64,000 nt of DNA from Cliona cf. orientalis (lineage: Eukaryota > Porifera > Demospongiae > Clionaida > Clionaidae), in contig OZ005690.1 in assembly GCA_963930775.1 (NCBI GenBank), forward strand, positions 8,044,225-8,108,224. The letters run 5' to 3'. The first letter of the stretch is position 1, and every line of letters begins with the position of its first letter. The translations under genes and the position numbers were made by a program. Below the pieces are notes generated by a model, which was given only the letters and a program-made list of their open reading frames with translations, did not search any database and was not told where the DNA came from. Below, one piece after another: positions 49,088-62,197 of this stretch.

Positions 49088-49472
49088 TACCCCGCGCGCC
49101 CTGTAGCCACTCTAGTGTAGTATTGCAATACTATGAGGCACACATGTAGCGGTTTCATGACGTGACGACCCTTTACAACACAGTGTTTGAGCATGCGCAG
49201 TCGCATCCGCATACTAAAAGAGTGGGTGTGGTCGATAAACCACAGGCATGCTGAACAGAAAATGCACGATTTGTAGAACTAGTAAGCTTTTTCGAGAAAT
49301 TCGAAGCGCGTACAAACCATTTTTTCACCGATATCTACCGATTGGTTGTGCTTATAGCATGCACAGACGCCTAGAACTCGAGATCTGGCGATTTTCGTGC
49401 CGACGACGACAACGACAACAACAACAGACATACAAACCGATTGCTTTACCCCGCGCGCATGCGCGCGGGGTA
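49088..49472. mobile_element. 385-bp insertion with GC-rich palindromic ends
   Basis: Ends are TACCCCGCGCGC (49088) and GCGCGCGGGGTA (to 49472), exact inverse copies. The right end is itself a palindrome (about 49446-49473). Exact removal of this interval restores the reading frame of the host gene across YHVI/VLYRALVM, with no target duplication left; assuming a TA duplication does not restore it. Non-coding. Confidence 0.65.
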
Positions 49473-49527
49473 ATAACATGGTAGACTATGACACATACAA
49501 GCATTGCTATTGTCATACTTACTGATA

Positions 49528-50000
49528 GAGTAAGCCACCAATGTTCGTCCACCATCAGATTCGGACGCGAATATCTCCAAAACTACAATAGCTAGGGACT
49601 TGGAACTTGCACCAGCGAATTCCTCGTGAAAATTTGGTACAGGGTCGCCCTGAAACAACCCCGCCCACTTAATTCGTACGCTTCCGTGACGTAAAAACGG
49701 AAGTGGACGAAAGAACTCAATAATCGGTTGATTACCATCAATTTTCGGACAGGAGCTGTAAAAACAGCCGCCGCAAGCGCTAAAGCTGCGAAACTCGTAC
49801 CCTACAAACTTCTGTCTTTGTACTTTCTGAATATGGAAACCGGACCCCAAGGCTCGTCGTATCGCTTGACACGAGGCTCTTTTCCAAGCCTGGTTCAGCG
49901 ATCAATAATCGGTCATTCGTAGTTTCAAAAACTAACGGGTTTTTTTATTTTTATTTTGGAGCGTCTCGGGCCTGGGTCTAGTTTGATACGCAACAGCACT
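49528..50000. repeat. Left terminal inverted repeat of the pogo-type element
   Basis: Inverse copy of 57629-58121 with small differences: single substitutions in the outer 350 bp, then an indel-rich stretch around 49920-49970, then agreement again through GTCTAGTTTGATA. Confidence 0.88.
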
Positions 50001-51056
50001 ATTGAGGGCGCGCCGGGGACCGTGTACCGGGCGCGCGCGGGCGCGGACAAGCTAGCTGTACTGCACGTCATCGATGCATCGCGTGCTTATCACCACGTGC
50101 GCGTTTTTCAGGAGATCTAGAGAGAGAGCTAGTGTGCAGATCGAGGATTCTGCATGTCAGTTTGGTTTAAATGTAAGCAATCCAGATCTAAACTCTAGCG
50201 GAAAATTTAAATTATTTTGTTAAAATATACAGTTTAGGGCGAAGTGTTGTTGGGAGAAAGAAAGTTAGGTGAGAAGACGGGACAAGTTATCCTTTAAGGT
50301 ATGAAGTTTTTCTAGGTGTCAGGTTAAATGCCCATGTGGGGAGGTAGACACACTGTACTTAGATTTACCACCAGGGTTAGATTTTTCACTAAAACTGATG
50401 GATCACCCTGACTGCTGTTGCAGTCCTTGATTGAAAATATAGGGGTCAAAGGTCACAGTAATTTTTAAGGTCAGGAAACCACAGCTAAAGTCTTGTGAAT
50501 AAGATAAGAGTCGATAGTCTTTTGTAAGACACAGTCTAGTATTTAGCCTGCAGACAATCACTGGAATTTTTTTTTTAATCATGCACTACTGTAAGTATCT
50601 GTAATTATGACAGACATATGGGCAAACAAATCCTCGCTCACTGCTCTAGTCGCTCCAGCTTGTCCAATACCGTAGGCCTGGTTTTAAATGCGTAACAGTC
50701 GACACAATTTATATTGTCCATTGCATTTTTTAAACCACTGAGTCTTCTTAAGCCATTGGAGTGTACGGAGGAGCTAATTAAGTGCTGCATGTAGTGTAAA
50801 CGCAATTATTAGAAATGCAATCAGCCTTGAAATGCTGTAAACGCAATTGTTTTACTATGCTTATGTCAAGTTGCATGAGTCTTAATCTTCAGCGTCTGAG
50901 TCCTTGTTTTCTTTGCTGGTTGGAGTTTTCTTGCTCTTGCAAAGCTTCTAGAACGCCAACCTTCTTAAAAACTATTGGGTTGTATATGTCTATGGACAGT
51001 GTAACTTATTATGTGTAGTAATTTAACTGTGTGTGATTTGTTTTTCAGGTGGCTAT

Positions 51057-52978
51057 ATGTACACACGTGTAACTATCACAATGCTAGCATATAACGATAG
51101 CAACAACTACCCTCCTTTAAGTCTGCGTGTGATCAGGTGTGACACAGAATCACATCGTACTCCTTACATACCACTACAACGTCCGAAATACTACAAATGT
51201 TATTCCAGTGAGACTTTCAACCTTGCAGTAAACGCTGTGGTTGAAGGTGATCTTAGCATTCGTAGGGCTGCTGAAGAGTATGCAGTTCCGAAGTCTACCC
51301 TGGGGGACCATGTTCAAGGACGTGTTTTAGCTGGTGCAATTGGAGGCCGACAGCGATATTTAAGTGCAGGTGAAGAAAAGATGTTAGTTGATTTTATCCT
51401 AAGGAGTGCAGAAATAGGGTATCCACGTAGTCGAAAAGAGATAATTTGTATGGTCCAAAATGTTTGTGACCATAAAGGCCTGCAAGTAACTGTTTCGCAT
51501 GGGTGGTGGGAGCGTTTTTGTCAACGTAATAAAGGATTTTCGCTGAGAGTACCTTCCTCCTTATCTACTGCCAGACACCAGGGCACTAATAAGAGAGTCA
51601 TGGAGGCATATTTTGATATGCTAGAAGAAACCCTTGAAGAGAACAATCTTACCGACAAGCCCTGTCAAATTTTCAATATGGACGAAACTGGCTTACCTTT
51701 ATCTCCCAAACCGCCTAAATTGTTGTGCAAGACAGGATCAAGAGCATTCAATGCGGTTACTGGAGGTGATAAATCGCAGATTACTATCGTGGGGTGCGTT
51801 AGCGCAGGGGGTTATCAAGTGCCACCTATGGTCATTTATGATAGGAAAACTCTGCATGCGGACATGGTGAAGGGGGAGGTTGGAGGGACACTGTATGGGC
51901 TCTCACAAAAGGGGTGGATTGATCAAGAGCTCTTTCGATTGTGGTTTAAGTACCACTTTCTCCGCTACATTCCGCCAGAGCGTCCTGTCATCCTGTTGAT
52001 GGATGGACACAGTACGCACTATTGTCCTGAAACCATGGTTCTGGCAGCCAAAAAGAGAGTTGTAGTGTTTGCACTACCTCCCAATACTACCCATGTGTCG
52101 CAACCCCTCGACAAGGGTTGTTTTGGCCCCCTTAAAGCGGCATGGAAAAGTGTTTGCCACGAGTACTGCGTGAAAAATCCAGGGAGAGCTGTTACTCGAT
52201 ATACCTTCTCCGAGCTTTTTTCACAAGCATGGATGCAGTCCATGAATATGAGAAACACCATCTCTGGTTTCAGATGCACTGGTATCTACCCAGTTGACCG
52301 TTCCAAGTTGATACCTCAGGATGAAGCCAACGCGTCCCTCTGCGGTGAAAACAGGGTATATGTGCCATTTCTATCTCCATCTCGCCGAAAGACAGCTGTT
52401 CAGCAGTGTGCTACGTCATTTGATCTTGATGAAATAGACTCATTCCTGAAAGAGCAAAGAAGTCCCCTGCAAGCCTCTAACAGCAAAGATATAAGACATG
52501 AGAGACGTGAAAAATTTCAGGAGATGTATTTACCACGTAGCATTGTGTCCTCCTCTACCCCTAGCCTTGACTATCCCTATGCTCATACCCCTGTGAGGAG
52601 TGACAAGCATGGAGGCCTTGTAGGGGGTTTAGCAGTTGCCGTTTGTAAACCAGTGAGCGTTCTTGAACGTGTTTTGAAGATGCCTGAAACACCAACGCAT
52701 GTTTCTGCCCAGACGTCAGAAAAAGAGCTGAAAACATCAAGAGTTCTCACCAGCGCTGAGAATCTTCAGCTACTTCAAGAAAAGGCAAGGAAAAAGGAAG
52801 AAAAACAGAAGAAGAAAGAGATTAACAAGCAGAAGAGAGAACAAAAAAGGCAACCTTCCCTGAAAAGTAAGACTATAGTTTTCCTACACCTCTATTAGCT
52901 GAAAATTATTACATACCCTACATGTAATTGCATTATTAGAGCAGAAGAAAGTACCCAAGAAAAGTGAAACCTCCCTAG
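51057..52978 (+). CDS. Pogo/Tigger-type DDE transposase (N-terminal part of a fusion)
   Basis: First coding exon 51057-52866; the ATG follows a CAG acceptor at 51047-51048. A 39-bp exon (52940-52978) continues in phase. A Pipsqueak-type helix-turn-helix lies at about 45-90 (SETFNLAVNAVVEGDLSIRR). A CENP-B-like second HTH region follows. The DDE_1 catalytic core has Asp 209 (NMDETGLPL), Asp 316 (LLMDGHSTHY) and Asp 352 (NTTHVSQPLDKG), with the usual LPPNTT before the last. No stops or frameshifts, so it may be active. The C-terminus is Lys/Glu-rich and coiled. The donor A/GTAAGA (52867) leads in phase 1 to the small exon and then to the protease exon at 53039. A separate ORF stopping at 52898 would arise if the intron were retained. 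Confidence 0.9.
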
Positions 52979-53038
52979 GTGAGTAGGATCCCATAAGTAT
53001 TGTGCATTTTCAAATAAGGTTCTGTACATTCTTCACAG

Positions 53039-53878
53039 ATCTGTCTGATATCCAACCTGACACTTCAGTTGATGACTTCTTGCACTACTTTAGCCTCTCA
53101 TCAGAGCCAGAGCCAGAACCTAATAATCCTGAGTTTCAAGCCTGGGTACCAAACCTAGCCCTTACTGAAGCTGACAAGCGTGCTCTTTGTAATGGAGACT
53201 GGCTCAATGCCAATCACATTGCAGCTGGAAACAAGCTTCTTAAAGCAAGGTTTCTGAACCAAAACGGACTGCAGGACACCTGCCTTCTTTCCAAGAAGCG
53301 GTGGAATTCCAAGCCAGAAGAGTTTATACAGATTTTGCATGTTGCAGGGAATCACTGGGTGTGCGTCAGCAATAAGCTGTCAGCTGATCACACTGTCGAA
53401 ATTTTTGACTCCCTGCATATTGAACTGAAAGAAGACGGTGAGACTGCAAGTCTAGTTTCATTCATCCTTGCTACCGACAGACCATCGTTTGACTTGGATC
53501 TTGTAAATGTCCATCGCCAACGACTCTACAATGACTGTGGCCTGTTTGCATTAGCCTTTGCTTTTGATTTGTGCTCCGGTGATGATCCTTATGAGTCATT
53601 GTATGATCAAGATGCCATGCGTAGCCACTTGGTGAAATGCTTTGAAAGGCAAGAATTCAAGCACTTCCCACGAATCACTGAAAATTCTCTGCTTCCAAAA
53701 AGAAGAGTGCGACCTACCATTACCGTGAAGGTATACTGTCACTGCAGAGAGCTAGAAAAGTGTCCAATGGCATCCTGTGACAAATGTCATGAGTGGTATC
53801 ATGACACATGTGAACAAATCCCTTTGGAAGTTTTCAGTAACCCTGATACTCCTTGGACATGCTCACTCTGTAAGAAAA
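53039..53878 (+). CDS. Ulp1-like C48 cysteine protease domain plus PHD finger
   Basis: Exon after acceptor TTCACAG (53038), phase 1, continuing the transposase frame. The Ulp1/SENP-type fold carries His in AGNHWVCVSN, Asp in EIFDSLH, Gln in VHRQRLYNDC and Cys in NDCGLFALAFA, a complete triad plus oxyanion Gln. A C4HC3 PHD finger follows: VYCHC, CDKCHEWYHDTC and WTCSLC. Two donors are possible: T/GTAAGA at 53870 matches consensus but loses the last PHD Cys; A/GTTATA at 53879 keeps it but is weak. Both are phase 1 and fit the repeat exons downstream. Proposed roles are deSUMOylation of host factors and chromatin reading for target choice (inference). Confidence 0.85.
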
Positions 53879-54071
53879 GTTATACATTACATGTACATAA
53901 TATGTGGTCTCACTCACATCTATCTAGGTTCAGAAGGCAATTCCTCATTGTTGCAAATGCATACACAGACAGAGGCAGGTCAGTTGCTTGCTTTCAAGCC
54001 CATGCTCAAGCACATGTACACATACTGTTGATTTTTGTGCCATCCCTTACATGTAAATTCCCTTCCTGCAG

Positions 54072-54647
54072 CTGTTGCCAGTGGAGATGGCGATAAGAGT
54101 GATGTGTCTCCTCTACACTCACTACCAACCCGTAGCAGAGCACAGGCTTTGAACAAGAGAGTTAAGGGTGAGTATGTGTGTGTGTGTGTGTGTGTGTGTG
54201 TACGTTGGGGGTGGGGGGATGTTTGTAGCGTGCTGTCCTGTATCTATATCTGTACACGTGCCAAGATGATTTTTGCGAATCCCCTTCCTGCAGCTGTTGC
54301 CAGTGGAGATGGAGATAAGAGTGATGTGTCTCCTCTACACTCACTACCAACCCGTAGTAGAGCACAGGCTTTGAACAAGAGAGTTAAGGGTGAGTGTATG
54401 TGTGTGTGTGTGTGTGAGTGTGTGTGTGTGTGTGTGTGTGTACGTTGGGGGTGGGGGGATGTTTGTAGCGTGCTGTCCTGTATCTATATCTGTACACGTG
54501 CCAAGATGATTTTTGCGAATCCCCTTCCTGCAGCTGTTGCCAGTGGAGATGGAGATAAGAGTGATGTGTCTCCTCTACACTCACTACCAACCCGTAGTAG
54601 AGCACAGGCTTTGAACAAGAGAGTTAAGGGTGAGTGTGTGTGTGTGT

Positions 54648-54680
<33 letters not shown>

Positions 54681-55829
54681 TTGGGGGTGTGGGGGGGGGG
54701 GTGTTTGCAGCGTGCTGTCCTGTATCTATATCTGTACACGTGCCAAGATGATTTTTGCGAATCCCCTTCCTGCAGCTGTTGCCAGTGGAGATGGAGATAA
54801 GAGTGATGTGTCTCCTCTACACTCACTACCAACCCGTAGTAGAGCACAGGCTTTGAACAAGAGAGTTAAGGGTGAGTGTGTGTGTGTGTGTGAGTGTGTG
54901 TGTGTGTGTGTGTGTGCGCGTTGGGGGTGGGGGGATGTTTGTAGCATGCTGTCCTGTATCTATATCTGTACACGTGCCAAGATGATTTTTGCGAATCCCC
55001 TTCCTGCAGCTGTTGCTAGTGGAGATGGAGATAAGAGTGATGTGTCTCCTCTACACTCACTACCAACCCGTAGTAGAGCACAGGCTTTGAACAAGAGAGT
55101 TAAGGGTGAGTGTATGTGTGTGTGTGTGAGTGTGTGTGTGTGTGTGTGTGCGCGTTGGGGGTGGGGGGATGTTTGTAGCATGCTGTCCTGTATCTATATC
55201 TGTACACGTGCCAAGATGATTTTTGCGAATCCCCTTCCTGCAGCTGTTGCTAGTGGAGATGGAGATAAGAGTGATGTGTCTCCTCTACACTCACTACCAA
55301 CCCGTAGTAGAGCACAGGCTTTGAACAAGAGAGTTAAGGGTGAGTGTATGTGTGTGTGTGTGAGTGTGTGTGTGTGTGTGTGTACGTTGGGGGTGGGGGG
55401 ATGTTTGTAGCGTGCTGTCCTGTATCTATATCTGTACACGTGCCAAGATGGTTTTTGCGAATCCCCTTCCTGCAGCTGTTGCCAGTGGAGATGGAGATAA
55501 GAGTGATGTGTCTCCTTTACGCTCACTACCAACCCGTAGTAGAGCACAGGCTTTGAACAAGAGAGTTAAGGGTGAGTGTGTGTGTGTGAGTGTGTGTGTG
55601 TGTGTGTGTGTGTTGGGGGTGTGGGGGGACGTTTACAGCGTGCTGTCCTGTATCTATATCTGTACACATGCCGAGATGATTTTTGCGAATCCCCTTCCTG
55701 CAGCTGTTGCCAGTGGAGATGGAGATAAGAGTGATGTGTCTCCTCTACGCTCACTACCAACCCGTAGTAGAGCACAGGCTTTGAACAAGAGAGTTAAAGG
55801 TGAGTGTGTGTGTGTGTGAGTGTGTGTGT

Positions 55830-55862
<33 letters not shown>

Positions 55863-56067
55863 CGTTGGGGGTGGGGGGATGTTTGTAGCATGCTGTCCTG
55901 TATCTATATCTGTACACGTGCCAAGATGATTTTTGCGAATTCCCTTCCTGCAGCTGTTGCTAGTGGAGATGGAGATAAGAGTGATGTGTCTCCTCTACAC
56001 TCACTACCAACCCATAGTAGAGCACAGGCTTTGAACAAGAGAGTTAAGGGTGAGTGTATGTGTGTGT

Positions 56068-56106
<39 letters not shown>

Positions 56107-57332
56107 TTGGGGGTGGGGGGATGTTTGTAGCGTGCTGTCCTGTATCTATATCTGTACACGTGCCAAGATGGTTTTTGCGAATCCCCTTCCTGCAGCTGTT
56201 GCCAGTGGAGATGGAGATAAGAGTGATGTGTCTCCTTTATGCTCACTACCAACCCGTAGTAGAGCACAGGTTTTGAACAAGAGAGTTAAGGGTGAGTGTG
56301 TGTGTGAGAGTGTGTGTGTGTGTGTGTGTGTTGGGGGTGTGGGGGGGGGGGGGTGTTTGCAGCGTGCTGTCCTGTATCTATATCTGTACACGTGCCAAGA
56401 TGGTTTTTGCGAATCCCCTTCCTGCAGCTGTTGCCAGTGGAGATGGAGATAAGAGTGATGTGTCTCCTTTACGCTCACTACCAACCCGTAGTAGAGCACA
56501 GGCTTTGAACAAGAGAGTTAAGGGTGAGTGTGTGTGTGTGAGTGTGTGTGTGTGTGTGTGTTGGGGGTGTGGGGGGACGTTTACAGCGTGCTGTCCTGTA
56601 TCTATATCTGTACACATGCCGAGATAATTTTTGCGAATCCCCTTCCTGCAGCTGTTGCCAGTGGAGATGGAGATAAGAGTGATGTGTCTCCTCTACACTC
56701 ACTACCAACCCGTAGTAGAACACAGGCTTTGAACAAGAGGGTTAAGGGTGAGTGTGTGTGTGTAGTCACTGACATGTGAAGATTATCCTTTGTGTTTGGT
56801 ATTGAATTCTCCTGTACATAGGAGGAGAACCCAGTGGAGTGGTGCCCGATACCAGAGGAGGACTGCTCAAGCCAGACAAATGTAAATGTGTGTTTCTGTG
56901 GTGTTCATTGCATGCTACATGGACATGTGTGTATGTATATACTTGTGCATGTACCCAAATGGTTTTTTTGTCTTCCCTTAAATCCCCTTCCTGCAGCTGT
57001 TGCCAGTGGAGATGGAGATAAGAGTGACGTGTCTCCTCTACGCTCAATACCAACCCGTAGTAGAGCACAGGCTTTGAACAAGAGAGATAAGGGTGAGTGT
57101 GTGTGTGTGTGTGTGTATGTGCACGTATGTGTGTGTGTGTTGGGGGTGTGGGGGGGGGGGGGTGTTTGCAGCGTGCTGTCCTGTATCTAGATCTGTACAT
57201 GTGCCCAGATGATTTTTACGAATCCCCTTCCTGCAGCTGTTGCCAGTGGAAATGGAGATAAGAGTGATGTGTCTCCTCTACACTCACTGTCAACCCGCAG
57301 TAGAGCACAGGCTTTGAAAAAGAGGGTTAAGG
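54072..57332 (+). repeat. Array of 14 tandem 96-bp exons in GT-rich introns
   Basis: Exon copies start at 54072, 54294, 54534, 54776, 55010, 55244, 55476, 55704, 55954, 56196, 56428, 56652, 56997 and 57237. Each is 96 bp, preceded by CCTTCCTGCAG and followed by G/GTGAGT then a GT run. All are phase 1 at both ends, so any number can be spliced in frame. Each encodes 32 residues (VASGDGDKSDVSPLHSLPTR, then SRAQALNKRVK). Periods are 222-250 bp except copy 12 to 13 (345 bp), where an extra 60-bp phase-1 exon (56822-56881) fits. A terminal exon (57409-57419, stop TGA) closes the frame. Confidence 0.88.
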
Positions 57333-57628
57333 GTGAGTGTGTGTGTGTGTGTGTGTGTGTCAAGATCGTCCTTTGTGTAAATATTCTCCTGTACGCACAC
57401 ACTTGTAGGAGGAAACTGATTTGTAACTGGCACACAAAGAAGTAGTTGTTTGAATTAAATTTTGTAATGATACATGTATCATCTCGTGTTTGAATCATTC
57501 TGTATTGTATCTTCCCGACATGGTAAACGCCGAGCGCGCATGCGTATAGGCCAGGCTGACCGGGTAGGCGTGCGCGTATGTTAGAGAATCTGATAATACA
57601 CACTGTATTATCTATGGTGCCACAGGGA

Positions 57629-58121
57629 GTGCCGTTGCCTATCAAACTAGACCCAGGGCCAGACTAGTGCCGAGGGGCTACAAAAAAAACACCGTTAGTT
57701 TTTATAGAATACCTTCAAACTTGAAACTACGGATGACCGATTATTGATCGCTGAACCAGGCTTGGAAAAGAGCCTCGTGTCAAGCGATACGACGAGCCTT
57801 GGGGTCCGGTTTCCATATTCAGAAAGTACAAAGACTGAAGTTTGTAGGGTACGAGTTTCGCAGCTTTAGCGCTTGCGGCGGCTGTTTTTACAGCTCCTGT
57901 CCGAAAATTGATGGTAATCAACCGATTATTGAGTTCTTTCGTCCACTTCCGTTTTTACGTCACGGAAGCGTACAAATTAAGTGGGCGGGGTTGATTCAGG
58001 GCGACCCTGTACCAAATTTTCACGAGGAATTCGCTGGTGCAAGTTCCAAGTCCCTAGCTATTTTAGTTTTGGAGATATTCGCGTCCGAATCTGATGGTGG
58101 ACGAACATTGGTGGCTTACTC
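57629..58121. repeat. Right terminal inverted repeat of the pogo-type element
   Basis: Inverse copy of 49528-50000; tip GAGTAAGCC at 58113-58121 on the minus strand. Open frames within it are shadows of the repeat, not genes. Confidence 0.88.
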
Positions 58122-61100
58122 TACATATGCTAGTGCAGCATGATTCCCAAGCTCATTATAAAGGATGTAAAACTTTCCAGCACTCAGTAGTATTAAGTTA
58201 ACATATAGTCCTGTTTCTAATACGTCAATGGGCCACTTTTTGTAGATGTTAAATTTGAGCATGAAAAGGCATGTGATGACAACGATGATAGCAATTAGGT
58301 TGATGCTTGGTTCTCCAGACACATTGACTGCTGATACTGTGTATAATACAACACGAGCAAAGAGTAGCAAACCAGTCCAGTAGCGACTTTTAGCCGTATA
58401 GGGAGCATGGTAAGCATCCATGAATGACGTTAGCCTTGTATTTTTTACCCAGTGAAAGATTTTAATATCTGATATAGGAAGAAGCCACTGCCAGAAAAAC
58501 AGCAAAACTGTGTAAGCTATCCCAATCAAGAGAATAAGAAGTGCCATCAAGAATAAAGGAATGTGCTTACCACTGAAGTACTTAACAGTGGCATCGGGGC
58601 GCCATACCAGTTCCTTGGAACCATCTGGATATTTCAAAATAGCAAATGCCAGAGAATTGATGATATTTTGAACAAGTTTTGTGTATGAAAATAGGATCTG
58701 TGTGGCCAATGTAGCAACTGGATTTCTCTTCCCTAAAAGGGAGGCAAATTTTTTTTGAGTATTGACAGATAAGAATCACTCCTGCAACTAGAGCAATTAA
58801 GTATACAGAAAAAAGAAAGTCTATCCATGTTTTGGTATATGCGTCCATGCCCTTGAAAAAGCAGGTGTTAAAGCCAATATCTAAATTCAACCAACTAACC
58901 ATAACAGAGAAAAAGTTTTGGTTTTGAAAAGGCAAGAAAATGCTCTTGTTAGCAATAACAACATTAGCATAAAAAATAATTCCATTTAGTGTACCAATGG
59001 CAACTGTCAAGTTTAACACCAAAATGAGACATACAAGAATGATTCCAGCCAATAGGGCACTCAGTATTATCACAATGAACAAAGCTGGCCAATACTTGGG
59101 ACAAGGAACACACTGAGAACTTCCTAATGAAAGACTGAGACCTGGCTTACACATGCTGCATAGAAGTCCGGATCGATGATGGTTACACTGAGCATCAGAT
59201 CCAGTTGGCTCATTGAGGTTGATAACAACATCGACAGTGGGAGGAAAGCAATAATCAAAGGGACAATGAGGGTGAATAAAATAGTTTGTTTTGTCTGAAT
59301 AATTTAAAGCTGTAATCCAGGCATCCCGTCTCCTGTGCACTTCTTTCGTTGACTGATTACAGCTTGTTACAAATTTCAATAATTTAGAATGACACTTGCA
59401 GCTACATGTGTACAAGTCTGTTTTTGATGGTTCAAATCCCACTGGGCAAATACAAGGGAGAAATTCAATTAAAACTGAGCGACGTGACATATTAGCATCC
59501 CTGCACGGACCATTGGGGTATACGATCATAACTTCCTTCTTTAGAACTGTGTATGCTCGAAATGTCAAAACTGAACACTTCAGTGAGTCTGTCGTTTGAG
59601 CTTTTTGTCCTTTACCGAGTCTGCTATCTTTATGTGATAAATAACTATGAATGGTGACGTGATTTAATGTGTGGTTGACATGGTCAACTGCTGCGACATA
59701 TAGGGTAAAATTTCTTCCCTTTACTATTTGGACTGGCTCAGGTTGATAACTACAGTTAACTTCAGCTTCAATTCTTTCACAAAAACAGACTCGAACTGCA
59801 TCAGATGATGTGTAGTTCAAAATACCTCGAGTGAAATTAGGCTGGCTAGAATACATGATCTTCATATATGCTTTCCGGTCAAACACATTAACAGTGCATC
59901 GATCCAATAATCCACCATAGAGAATAGCTCCAGAAGTGTTTGCAGTGTTACCAGAGAAGGAAATATGGGTCTTAATGATGTTAGAAGTTCTAGAATTGCT
60001 ACCATAAGGATTGTATCGAATTGATTGAAAGAAACAGTCAGATTCTGCAGTATTGGTTAGTGTGTATTCACTACTGGTGCAAGTACCATTATTTGTATCA
60101 TCAGATACAAAAATAGCCCCACCAAAGTCGGCTCTATTGTTAGTAAACTCAATCACAACTTTATCTGTAGTAGTGTAGAGTCTTGAGCTCTCCTCCAAAC
60201 AAACACCACCACCGAGTTTAGCCAAATTGGAACGAAAATTGATACAGCTTAGCTCTTTATTTCTTGTTACTAAAACCAATGAAGAACTAACCAAATGAAC
60301 TCCACCACCCTTATAAAATGCTCTATTATTAGCAAGAGTAGCTTCACCTCGGACAATCCATATTACACTATGGTAGACATAGATTGCCCCTCCAGTGTCT
60401 GACACACGGTTTTCAGTTAAGGATAGCTTACCAGAGACCACAATTCTGCTTGAGATTGCCAATATTCCGCCACCATTAATCGCTTTATTATGCAAGAACT
60501 TAACTTTTTCTTGTAGATAAACAGTGCTTAGAATGCTTGTTATTCCACCTCCTTCATTGACACCAGCATAATTTTCTAAGAGCTCTTCTGGAACATTATT
60601 TTTGAACTGGATATCACCACTGGCAGAAATTTCACTGTCAAATACTAAAAGAGATCCAGTGTTATTTTTGTAAGTAAATTTTCCATCAATTTTGCCACCG
60701 CTATGTAGGAATATGAATGCTCCCCAGCTGGCGTTATTGTTAATGATCAACAGCGTACAGTTACAGGTGAATAAGCTAAACTGAACTTGTATAGCACCTC
60801 CATAATGAGCTGAATTTCCAACAAACAAGTTCTTATTCGTCAAATGCAACACACTCCCTGTGTTTGAACTTACTGCCCCTCCAGCATAAGCTCTATTGGA
60901 ATAAAATTTTGTATTACAGAATTTAACAAAAGTGTTGTCGGCATAATACATAACTCCTCCCCTACCCACACCAGATGTAGCACCATTGCCGATGAAAGTA
61001 CATTCAGTGATGGAAACATTAGATTTAGATATCCGAGTAACTCCACCGAGATTATATGCTTCATTTCCATTGAAATAACTAAAATTCATTTGTACAGTTG

Positions 61101-62197
61101 AGCGTTCTGCATAAAACACCCCACCTGCTTTTTCAAATGCTTTGTTTCCTGTGAAATTACAATTCCTAACGAGTACAACTGAAGTCTTAAACAGTCCTAT
61201 TCCTCCATTAAGTTTTGCTGAGTTATGTGAGAAGCTACATTCATAAAAAGCAATGTTGGAGTGTCTTGAGTCTATCACAGCACCCATGTATGCGAAGTTC
61301 ATATGAAAGTGTCCGAACTCTATTGAGACACTACTATCAAAGCAAGCGATTACTCCACCTCTGGTTACTTGCCATGGCTGGCTGTGATTCAAAACATTTC
61401 GTAAAAATACTGAATGAGTAATGAATACATCGCTGCAGTTTAAGAATATCAACCCCCCCCAAACATCTGTTCTTACGTATACATATTGTCGAGTGATCAG
61501 TGAATATGCTGTTGCTGATAGTGATGCTGCTGTAATTTTGTGCAAAAATTATTCCTCCAAGTTCAGCACTATTGTTCTTAAAGACACAGTTAGTTATTCC
61601 AACAATGCTATTAGACAGAATCATAACTCCACCAACGGTTATTTGATCAGTATTAGTTCGAAGTTTCACTATTTCACTATTCCACAATGTACCGAAGAAG
61701 TTATAAAAAGAGCTATTTAATAATTGCAAGCTACTCGATTTTACCACCATGGCAGAGCCAGGCATACCCACTGTTTGTTTCATGACAACATTTTGAATGA
61801 TAATGTTGTGTATGTTACAAATTTCAATCTCAACACAATTAATCAAGTCAATTTCGCCAATTTGTACAAGTGAAACTGACAAAAAGGTGATTCGTACTGA
61901 TCTATGACATTTAACGGTAGCTCTACCAGTTGGGGCTACATTCATGGATGTTATTGAAAGGTAGAGGTTACCTGCAATGGATAAATTCTTATCAAGAGAA
62001 TGGTTTCCGTGAAGAAATATCAAAGAAATATTTCCAGTGATTCTTTGGTCAGAACTTGTAGCAAATGCTGCCATGGTGACACAGTTATTATTGACTGGAC
62101 AAGGTGCATCTTCGGATGACTTGATGTAATATGTCGAACATATGACGGAAGAAACGATACACATGTGCCACAAGAGAGCTCTAATGATACACAACAT

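Follow-up and report, generated by a model that had tools for sequence, protein, structure and literature searches.

A pogo-type transposon of the sponge Cliona cf. orientalis that carries a predicted Ulp1-like protease, a PHD finger and an exon array

Organization of the element

We characterized a stretch of 64,000 nucleotides (the window) from the genome of the sponge Cliona cf. orientalis, corresponding to positions 8044225–8108224 of contig OZ005690.1 (C2 in our numbering) in the assembly GCA_963930775.1, which comprises 216.8 Mb in 149 contigs. Positions given below are those of the window. At 49528–58121 it contains a TA-flanked element of 8,594 bp (8.6 kb), whose plus strand encodes a pogo transposase followed by a candidate protease, a PHD finger and an array of tandem exons. 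The element is framed by long terminal inverted repeats (TIRs), the left one at 49528–49928 (plus strand) and the right one at 57721–58121 (minus strand). Each is 401 bp long, or 403 nt when the adjoining TA is included (49526–49928 and 57721–58123), and the two arms differ at five positions. The outermost bases of the element are GAGTAAGCCACC, and one copy of the TA target site lies at either side (49526–49527 and 58122–58123). Long TIRs and a TA duplication had been noticed in a first reading of this DNA from its letters alone, hereafter the original prediction, and both were recovered here.

The transposase is encoded by exon 1 (51057–52866, plus strand). It contains an HTH_psq domain (about 51210–51326; 42.8 bits, Pfam cut-off 20.4), an HTH_Tnp_Tc5 domain (about 51372–51545; 23.6 bits, cut-off 22.2) and a DDE_1 core (about 51783–52178; 76.8 bits, cut-off 22), all on the plus strand. 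Codons for the catalytic aspartates start at 51681, 52002 and 52110, with 35 residues separating the last two (DD35D), so that the DDE core is intact, as had been proposed. A comparison of the transposase with solved structures gave no match at an E-value of 0.01. The DDE_1 core with its three aspartates, the HTH_psq and HTH_Tnp_Tc5 pair, the TIRs and the TA sites, the last found at all three complete copies described below, are traits of the pogo superfamily. Right before the start codon, at 51048–51049, is an acceptor-like TTTTTCAG, a hint that the element may have a leader exon further upstream.

Exon 2 (52940–52978, plus strand) is a phase-1 exon of 39 nt that encodes a basic linker. Exon 3 (53039–53878, plus strand) encodes a predicted protease of the C48/Ulp1 fold (about 53122–53661), followed by a PHD finger (53737–53871). 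The complete His-Asp-Gln-Cys set of the protease, one of the features listed in the original prediction, corresponds to H105, D123, Q160 and C166 of exon 3 (codons at 53353, 53407, 53518 and 53536). In an alignment of 30 sequences, which includes fragments and whose least similar member is about 30% identical to the window, H105, Q160 and C166 are invariant and D123 is nearly so. All eight ligands of the predicted C4HC3 finger are present as well, at exon-3 residues 233–277. In structure comparison, the best fold matches of the protease were SENP, Ulp1 and NEDP1. A YopJ-type acetyltransferase, for which the Pfam score was 23.2 bits (cut-off 24.4), is disfavoured because the best fold matches are these three. 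The nearest solved relatives of the PHD finger are mostly H3K4me3 readers, and residues Y232, M243 and W252 occupy the positions of a putative aromatic cage. Relatives of exon 3 elsewhere in the genome (L numbers denote our loci) scored 21.4 (L021) and 26.6 bits (L022), above the Peptidase_C48 cut-off of 20.7, or 20.6 (L048) and 16.8 bits (L047), below it; PHD scores of relatives ranged from 25.2 to 33 bits (cut-off 24). The fold, the family profile and the relatives that pass the Pfam cut-offs support the identity of the C48 and PHD domains of the window.

Phase-1 GT-AG junctions, as originally proposed, are present at 52866/52940 and 52978/53039, and the length of every internal exon is a multiple of three. 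The exon-3 frame has no ATG in 52800–53540 and meets stops at 52900 and 52984, and splicing of exon 1 to exon 3 gives an open frame. Since its own frame offers no ATG before the catalytic Cys, we read the protease as fused to the transposase.

Exon 3 is followed by an array of 14 tandem exons (54072–57332, plus strand), each of exactly 96 nt (32 amino acids, basic) and separated by GT-rich introns; all 14 are open in the phase-1 frame. Our model places two further exons on the plus strand: a 60-nt phase-1 exon between units 12 and 13 (56822–56881), whose start also occurs in the copies on contigs C14 and C10, and a proposed terminal exon with the stop codon (57409–57419), whose bases are identical in the same two copies and were not found in the copy on contig C1. 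The full model has a single stop and ends in ...RVKGGN, with 1,367 amino acids if the exon-3 donor after 53878 is used and 1,364 if the alternative, strong-looking donor after 53869 is used. Its Gly-Gly-Asn C-terminus is similar to that of a ubiquitin-like precursor, and the same protein has an Ulp1 domain of its own; this may be a coincidence.

Copies of the element and its insertion site

A genome search with the left TIR as query returned seven matches, which represent four copies: that of the window, complete copies on C14 and C10, and an older copy on C1, of which one arm was matched. The three complete copies have identical ends and TA on both sides. Compared with the window, the C14 and C10 copies differ at 2 of 403 positions in the left TIR, at 4–5 of about 1,805 in exon 1 (with a 3-nt gap in one copy) and at 2–3 of 840 in exon 3. 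The C1 copy is more diverged: the end of exon 1, including the donor, is missing, and one stop interrupts the transposase match. Transposase and Ulp1-PHD matches were found together in all four copies, the older, damaged one on C1 included; we looked for copies of the TIR element without the protease and PHD part and found none. The number of array units, counted by pattern, is 14 in the window, 12 in the C14 copy, at least 3 in the C10 copy, which is partly N, and 8 in the C1 copy.

These copies bear on a simpler arrangement, in which two genes are merely adjacent, or a plain pogo element has an Ulp1-PHD piece of another transposon nested in it or lying alongside. Such an arrangement would agree with the fact that the exon-1 frame, if left unspliced, terminates beyond the donor and would yield a transposase on its own, comparable to the database entry P0049, and with the presence of Ulp1-PHD in other elements of this genome. 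However, the whole unit lies within one TIR pair in the three complete copies, both parts occur together in four of four, the protease frame lacks its own ATG, and the pairing is directional at 15 of 70 pogo loci (see below). We consider this arrangement highly unlikely, and nested insertion and separate genes were rejected on the copies, the frame and the missing ATG. The originally proposed single mobile element with a single protein is in keeping with the copies and with the protease frame devoid of an ATG; transposase, protease, PHD finger and array very probably form one predicted protein.

On the right-hand side of the element, two overlapping minus-strand frames (58116–58775 and 58582–61548) look like one host gene (58116–61548, minus strand) cut by the insertion. 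The frame at 58582–61548 contains Chlam_PMP repeats (32.6 bits, cut-off 20.6). That at 58116–58775 has no Pfam match, enters the right TIR and ends there at a stop. When the flanks were joined in silico, the host frame continued (...ALAYVSVSMTIAMLVCVIVYHVI) up to a repeat at about 49100–49475. Because the joined flanks carry the host frame onward, the element seems to have inserted into a coding exon, with exact boundaries. This is a single insertion site and gives no basis for judging target preference. The repeat that adjoins the element, of about 376 bp, is probably a miniature inverted-repeat transposable element: of the 42 matches listed, including the window's own, 40 cover most of the repeat at no less than 93% (of 2,575 candidates, 40 were scored).

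At the level of sequence, the boundaries, the TA sites, the intact domains, the several copies of the whole unit and the interrupted host frame are established. A single open protein with regulatory-looking domains might also be expected of a domesticated host gene. This reading is extremely improbable in view of the TIRs, the TA sites, the three near-identical complete copies and the interrupted host frame, and for this locus the copies refute it.

Ulp1-PHD modules in other transposons

The genome was searched with the transposase, for which 71 of 302 candidates were scored, and with exon 3, for which 138 places were scored of 364 candidates, so that a locus without a detected module may still have one. 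The 79 transposase matches became 70 loci after nine second pieces were merged. At least 15 of these 70 pogo loci, four of them copies of the window family, are followed on the same strand by an Ulp1-PHD match no more than 8 kb away. None of the 70 has such a match within 8 kb upstream on the same strand or within 8 kb on the opposite strand. Contig C1 beyond 14 Mb holds 85 of the 138 Ulp1-PHD places, and could represent a chromosome that is rich in repeats or otherwise special.

Tandem repeats adjoin Ulp1-PHD at other pogo loci, with units of 218 bp (2.4 copies) at L042, 69 bp (5.5 copies) at L066 and 169 bp (12.6 copies) at L067. At L017, units of 180 bp follow the PHD finger (3.6 copies in the stretch examined) and related units precede Ulp1; L043, the transposase part of the same element, contains no tandem repeat. 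The arrays of different families seem to have grown independently, because their unit sequences, judged by eye, look unrelated. For the pogo elements of L042 and L043, no framing inverted pair was seen in two 8.2-kb stretches. Three pogo loci have other additions. At L042, a RING finger (zf-C3HC4_3, 35.9 bits, cut-off 27; minus strand, 1936–2049 of C1:30224200–30228200) lies between the transposase and Ulp1-PHD. The other two have C-terminal zinc modules of a different kind: a PHD-like exon without Ulp1 (21.8 bits, cut-off 24) is found downstream of the transposase at L068, and L069 is a pogo frame of 1,124 amino acids with a Cys-rich C-terminus and PSTSPTGGSTSKAA-type repeats.

Other transposase types carry the module as well. 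At 29 of the 138 places, Ulp1-PHD lies in an open frame of 1,018–1,154 amino acids, two of them with a stop inside the match. The four that were translated (L022, L023, L027 and L028) consist of a long N-terminal part followed by Ulp1-PHD in the same frame, a type that we tentatively label MULE-like by a motif. In the upstream part of L022 (L046), no Pfam family exceeded its cut-off; its C-terminal part passes both thresholds, with the 26.6 bits for Peptidase_C48 given above and 27.1 bits for PHD against 24. A Pfam MULE transposase (L055; 32.3 bits, cut-off 27.6) is located about 5 kb upstream of the Ulp1-PHD of L052, and we infer that the two belong to one element. Upstream of Ulp1-PHD at L020/L044, L021 and L048 are integrase-like pieces or a GPY/F-like tail; the Pfam integrase-type scores were under the cut-off (23.5 against 26.5 bits for L044 and 19 against 30 for L048). 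L020, L021, L047 and L048 are Ginger1-like in their predicted sequence. The sole Ginger1 sign in L047 is a Ginger1-type N-terminal motif, and this locus also carries a pogo fragment on the opposite strand.

Trees were built from chosen rows rather than from all matches (41 and 31 rows for Ulp1-PHD, 20 for the transposase). In the Ulp1-PHD tree, the window family and L016/L017 come together (99/97; rows window, L015, L016 and L017), and the neighbours of this group are three of the four rows of Ginger1-like loci (97/90). L066, L067 and a sequence of the sponge Amphimedon form a separate pogo group (100/99), which also includes two rows without a label. The transposase tree separates the window family from L042/L043. 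A single origin of the module in seven pogo rows was not rejected (p-AU 0.076). Rejected were a single origin in the four Ginger1-like rows (p-AU 0.010) and one transposase clade of the window, L059, L042 and L043 (p-AU 0.009), yet it is the modules of these four loci that come together at 99/97 in the Ulp1-PHD tree. Module exchange between loci fits but is suggestive only, because the groups were picked after seeing the trees and modules may have been lost or have gone undetected.

The element can be compared with described systems. For pogo elements, Gao et al. 2020 (PMC7386202) give lengths of 1.2–5.2 kb and transposases of 300–977 amino acids, report HTH_psq together with HTH_Tnp_Tc5 and DD35D in Fot and Fot-like elements, and report TIRs of 392–856 bp only in unclassified insect pogo elements. 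The window element, which has DDE_1, HTH_psq with HTH_Tnp_Tc5, DD35D and TA sites, is Fot-like by domain make-up. It differs in its size (8.6 kb and about 1,367 amino acids), which is outside ranges that are descriptive rather than defining, and in having Ulp1, PHD and the exon array in addition. The main text of PMC7386202 contains no occurrence of PHD or Ulp1, and neither term is present in a second pogo survey, PMC7325037, or in PMC10027918 and PMC4007536. No report of Ulp1 or PHD in pogo was found in the literature searched, which did not extend to subscription journals, preprints, supplements or Repbase, and the pogo version of Ulp1-PHD appears to be unreported.

Outside pogo, Bao et al. 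2010 (PMC2836005) describe Ulp1 in Ginger1 families and Ulp1 with PHD in Ginger1-9_HM of Hydra, name in a figure legend an alignment of the Ulp1 and PHD domains found in Ginger1 and Mutator transposases, and cite Mutator/MULE elements with Ulp1 in hydra, lancelet and plants. Ginger1-9_HM resembles the window element in having a transposase with a C-terminal Ulp1, with PHD listed alongside in this one family, whereas the core of Ginger1 is a Gypsy-type integrase and that of the window element is DDE_1. Mutator/MULE elements likewise combine a transposase with Ulp1 in one element, but their transposase belongs to another superfamily. According to Kojima and Jurka 2011 (PMC3212892), two oomycete groups, CryptonF and CryptonS, have a C48 peptidase, for which the authors name domain shuffling between the two Crypton groups as a possible explanation. 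These elements share an Ulp1-like C48 with the window element, but they are tyrosine recombinase elements, and there is no mention of PHD.

Among the transposase database matches listed (120 of 365), the only named organism was Amphimedon queenslandica, with the predicted proteins P0078–P0082 and P0084 of LOC109581489. P0084 combines HTH_psq, DDE_1, tandem basic repeats, an Ulp1-like domain and PHD in one predicted protein. It differs from the window model in that the array precedes Ulp1, its unit looks unrelated, and its Ulp1-PHD is on another branch of the tree. By a short pattern, the isoforms of 1,117, 1,194, 1,218, 1,244, 1,244 and 1,370 amino acids contain 8, 11, 12, 13, 13 and 18 units, respectively. 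According to the original prediction, no pogo-type element is known to have this single-protein architecture. This agrees with the literature searched, but the element does not stand alone, in view of the 15 or more pogo loci of this genome with Ulp1-PHD downstream and of the predicted Amphimedon homologue.

Interpretation and possible role of the module

We consider it likely that the element is an autonomous-looking, recently mobile DNA transposon of the pogo superfamily that encodes a C48 protease, a PHD finger and a variable array in one protein. Several observations weigh against this reading. The proposed Pfam check placed DDE_1 above its cut-off but left the window's Peptidase_C48 (17.7 bits, curated cut-off 20.7) and PHD (23.8 bits, curated cut-off 24) below theirs. 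When the Ulp1-PHD part was searched against a database with fused-length limits, none of 500 candidates reached an E-value of 1e-3, and Pfam C48 found no match at E 0.1 on Amphimedon P0084. In the structure comparison, the NEDD8 protease and the SUMO proteases tie in Z. The exon-3 donor that keeps the last PHD Cys (GTTATA, 53879) looks weak, and the strong-looking one (GTAAGA, 53870) removes it. Translation of the protease may begin in an upstream exon or at a non-ATG start. Between the window and the older C1 copy, there are 5 synonymous and 11 nonsynonymous changes in the 275 codons of exon 3, and 15 and 18, respectively, in 556 codons of exon 1, which suggests no strong constraint over this short span. 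Finally, 55 of the 70 pogo loci have no detected Ulp1-PHD within 8 kb; the module is therefore not required for pogo transposition in general.

The loci without a detected module and the weak constraint seen over the little divergence that separates the older copy from the window are also what would be seen if the protease and the PHD finger were passengers, captured and hitch-hiking without benefit. We regard this as decidedly unlikely, as the catalytic residues and zinc ligands show no or almost no variation across the 30 aligned sequences, which extend down to about 30% identity with the window, and the protease-PHD pair recurs beside other transposase types.

If the module does serve the element, its parts might act as follows, in a mechanism that we put forward tentatively and, as a whole, at somewhat less than an even chance. 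The HTH domains would recognize the TIRs, and cutting at TA would fall to the DDE core. The PHD finger would hold the protein on active chromatin of the H3K4me3 type, and the protease would strip SUMO or NEDD8 either from the element's own transposase or from nearby factors involved in silencing, chromatin or repair, with the result that transposition would be repaired better or silenced less. The basic array could act as a tether in the nucleus, to DNA or to chromatin, with a length that would drift by unequal exchange and would perhaps be tuned by splicing. A partial parallel is RAG1/RAG2, in which a transposon-derived DNA-cutting enzyme is served by an H3K4me3-reading PHD finger; it differs in that the transposase is unrelated, the PHD finger is in a separate protein and there is no protease. 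A variant of the mechanism, in which the protease acts on post-cutting repair factors or on the element's own protein and not on silencing, seems to us rather unlikely. It draws on PMC2836005, where Bao et al. propose that the Ulp1 of Ginger1 acts in post-transposition repair by activating repair factors, and the proposed Gly-Gly-Asn C-terminus hints weakly that the end might be cleaved.

Why transposons carry SUMO/ubiquitin proteases has been a question since Mutator, Ginger1 and the Cryptons. The genome analyzed here provides a matched comparison, within one host and one transposase type, of elements with and without a detected module, and it contains Ginger1-like and MULE-like carriers too. 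The Ulp1-PHD cassette of this genome might be an accessory that is exchanged among the unrelated pogo, Ginger1-like and MULE-like superfamilies instead of having been gained once by each, that has repeatedly been joined in pogo to independent basic arrays, and that has a general counter-silencing role in transposons of early-branching animals, a possibility to which we give a little less than even weight. In flies, transposon silencing by Piwi depends on SUMO. If our proposal is true, an element that brings its own deSUMOylase, attached to a chromatin reader, would counter this silencing directly.

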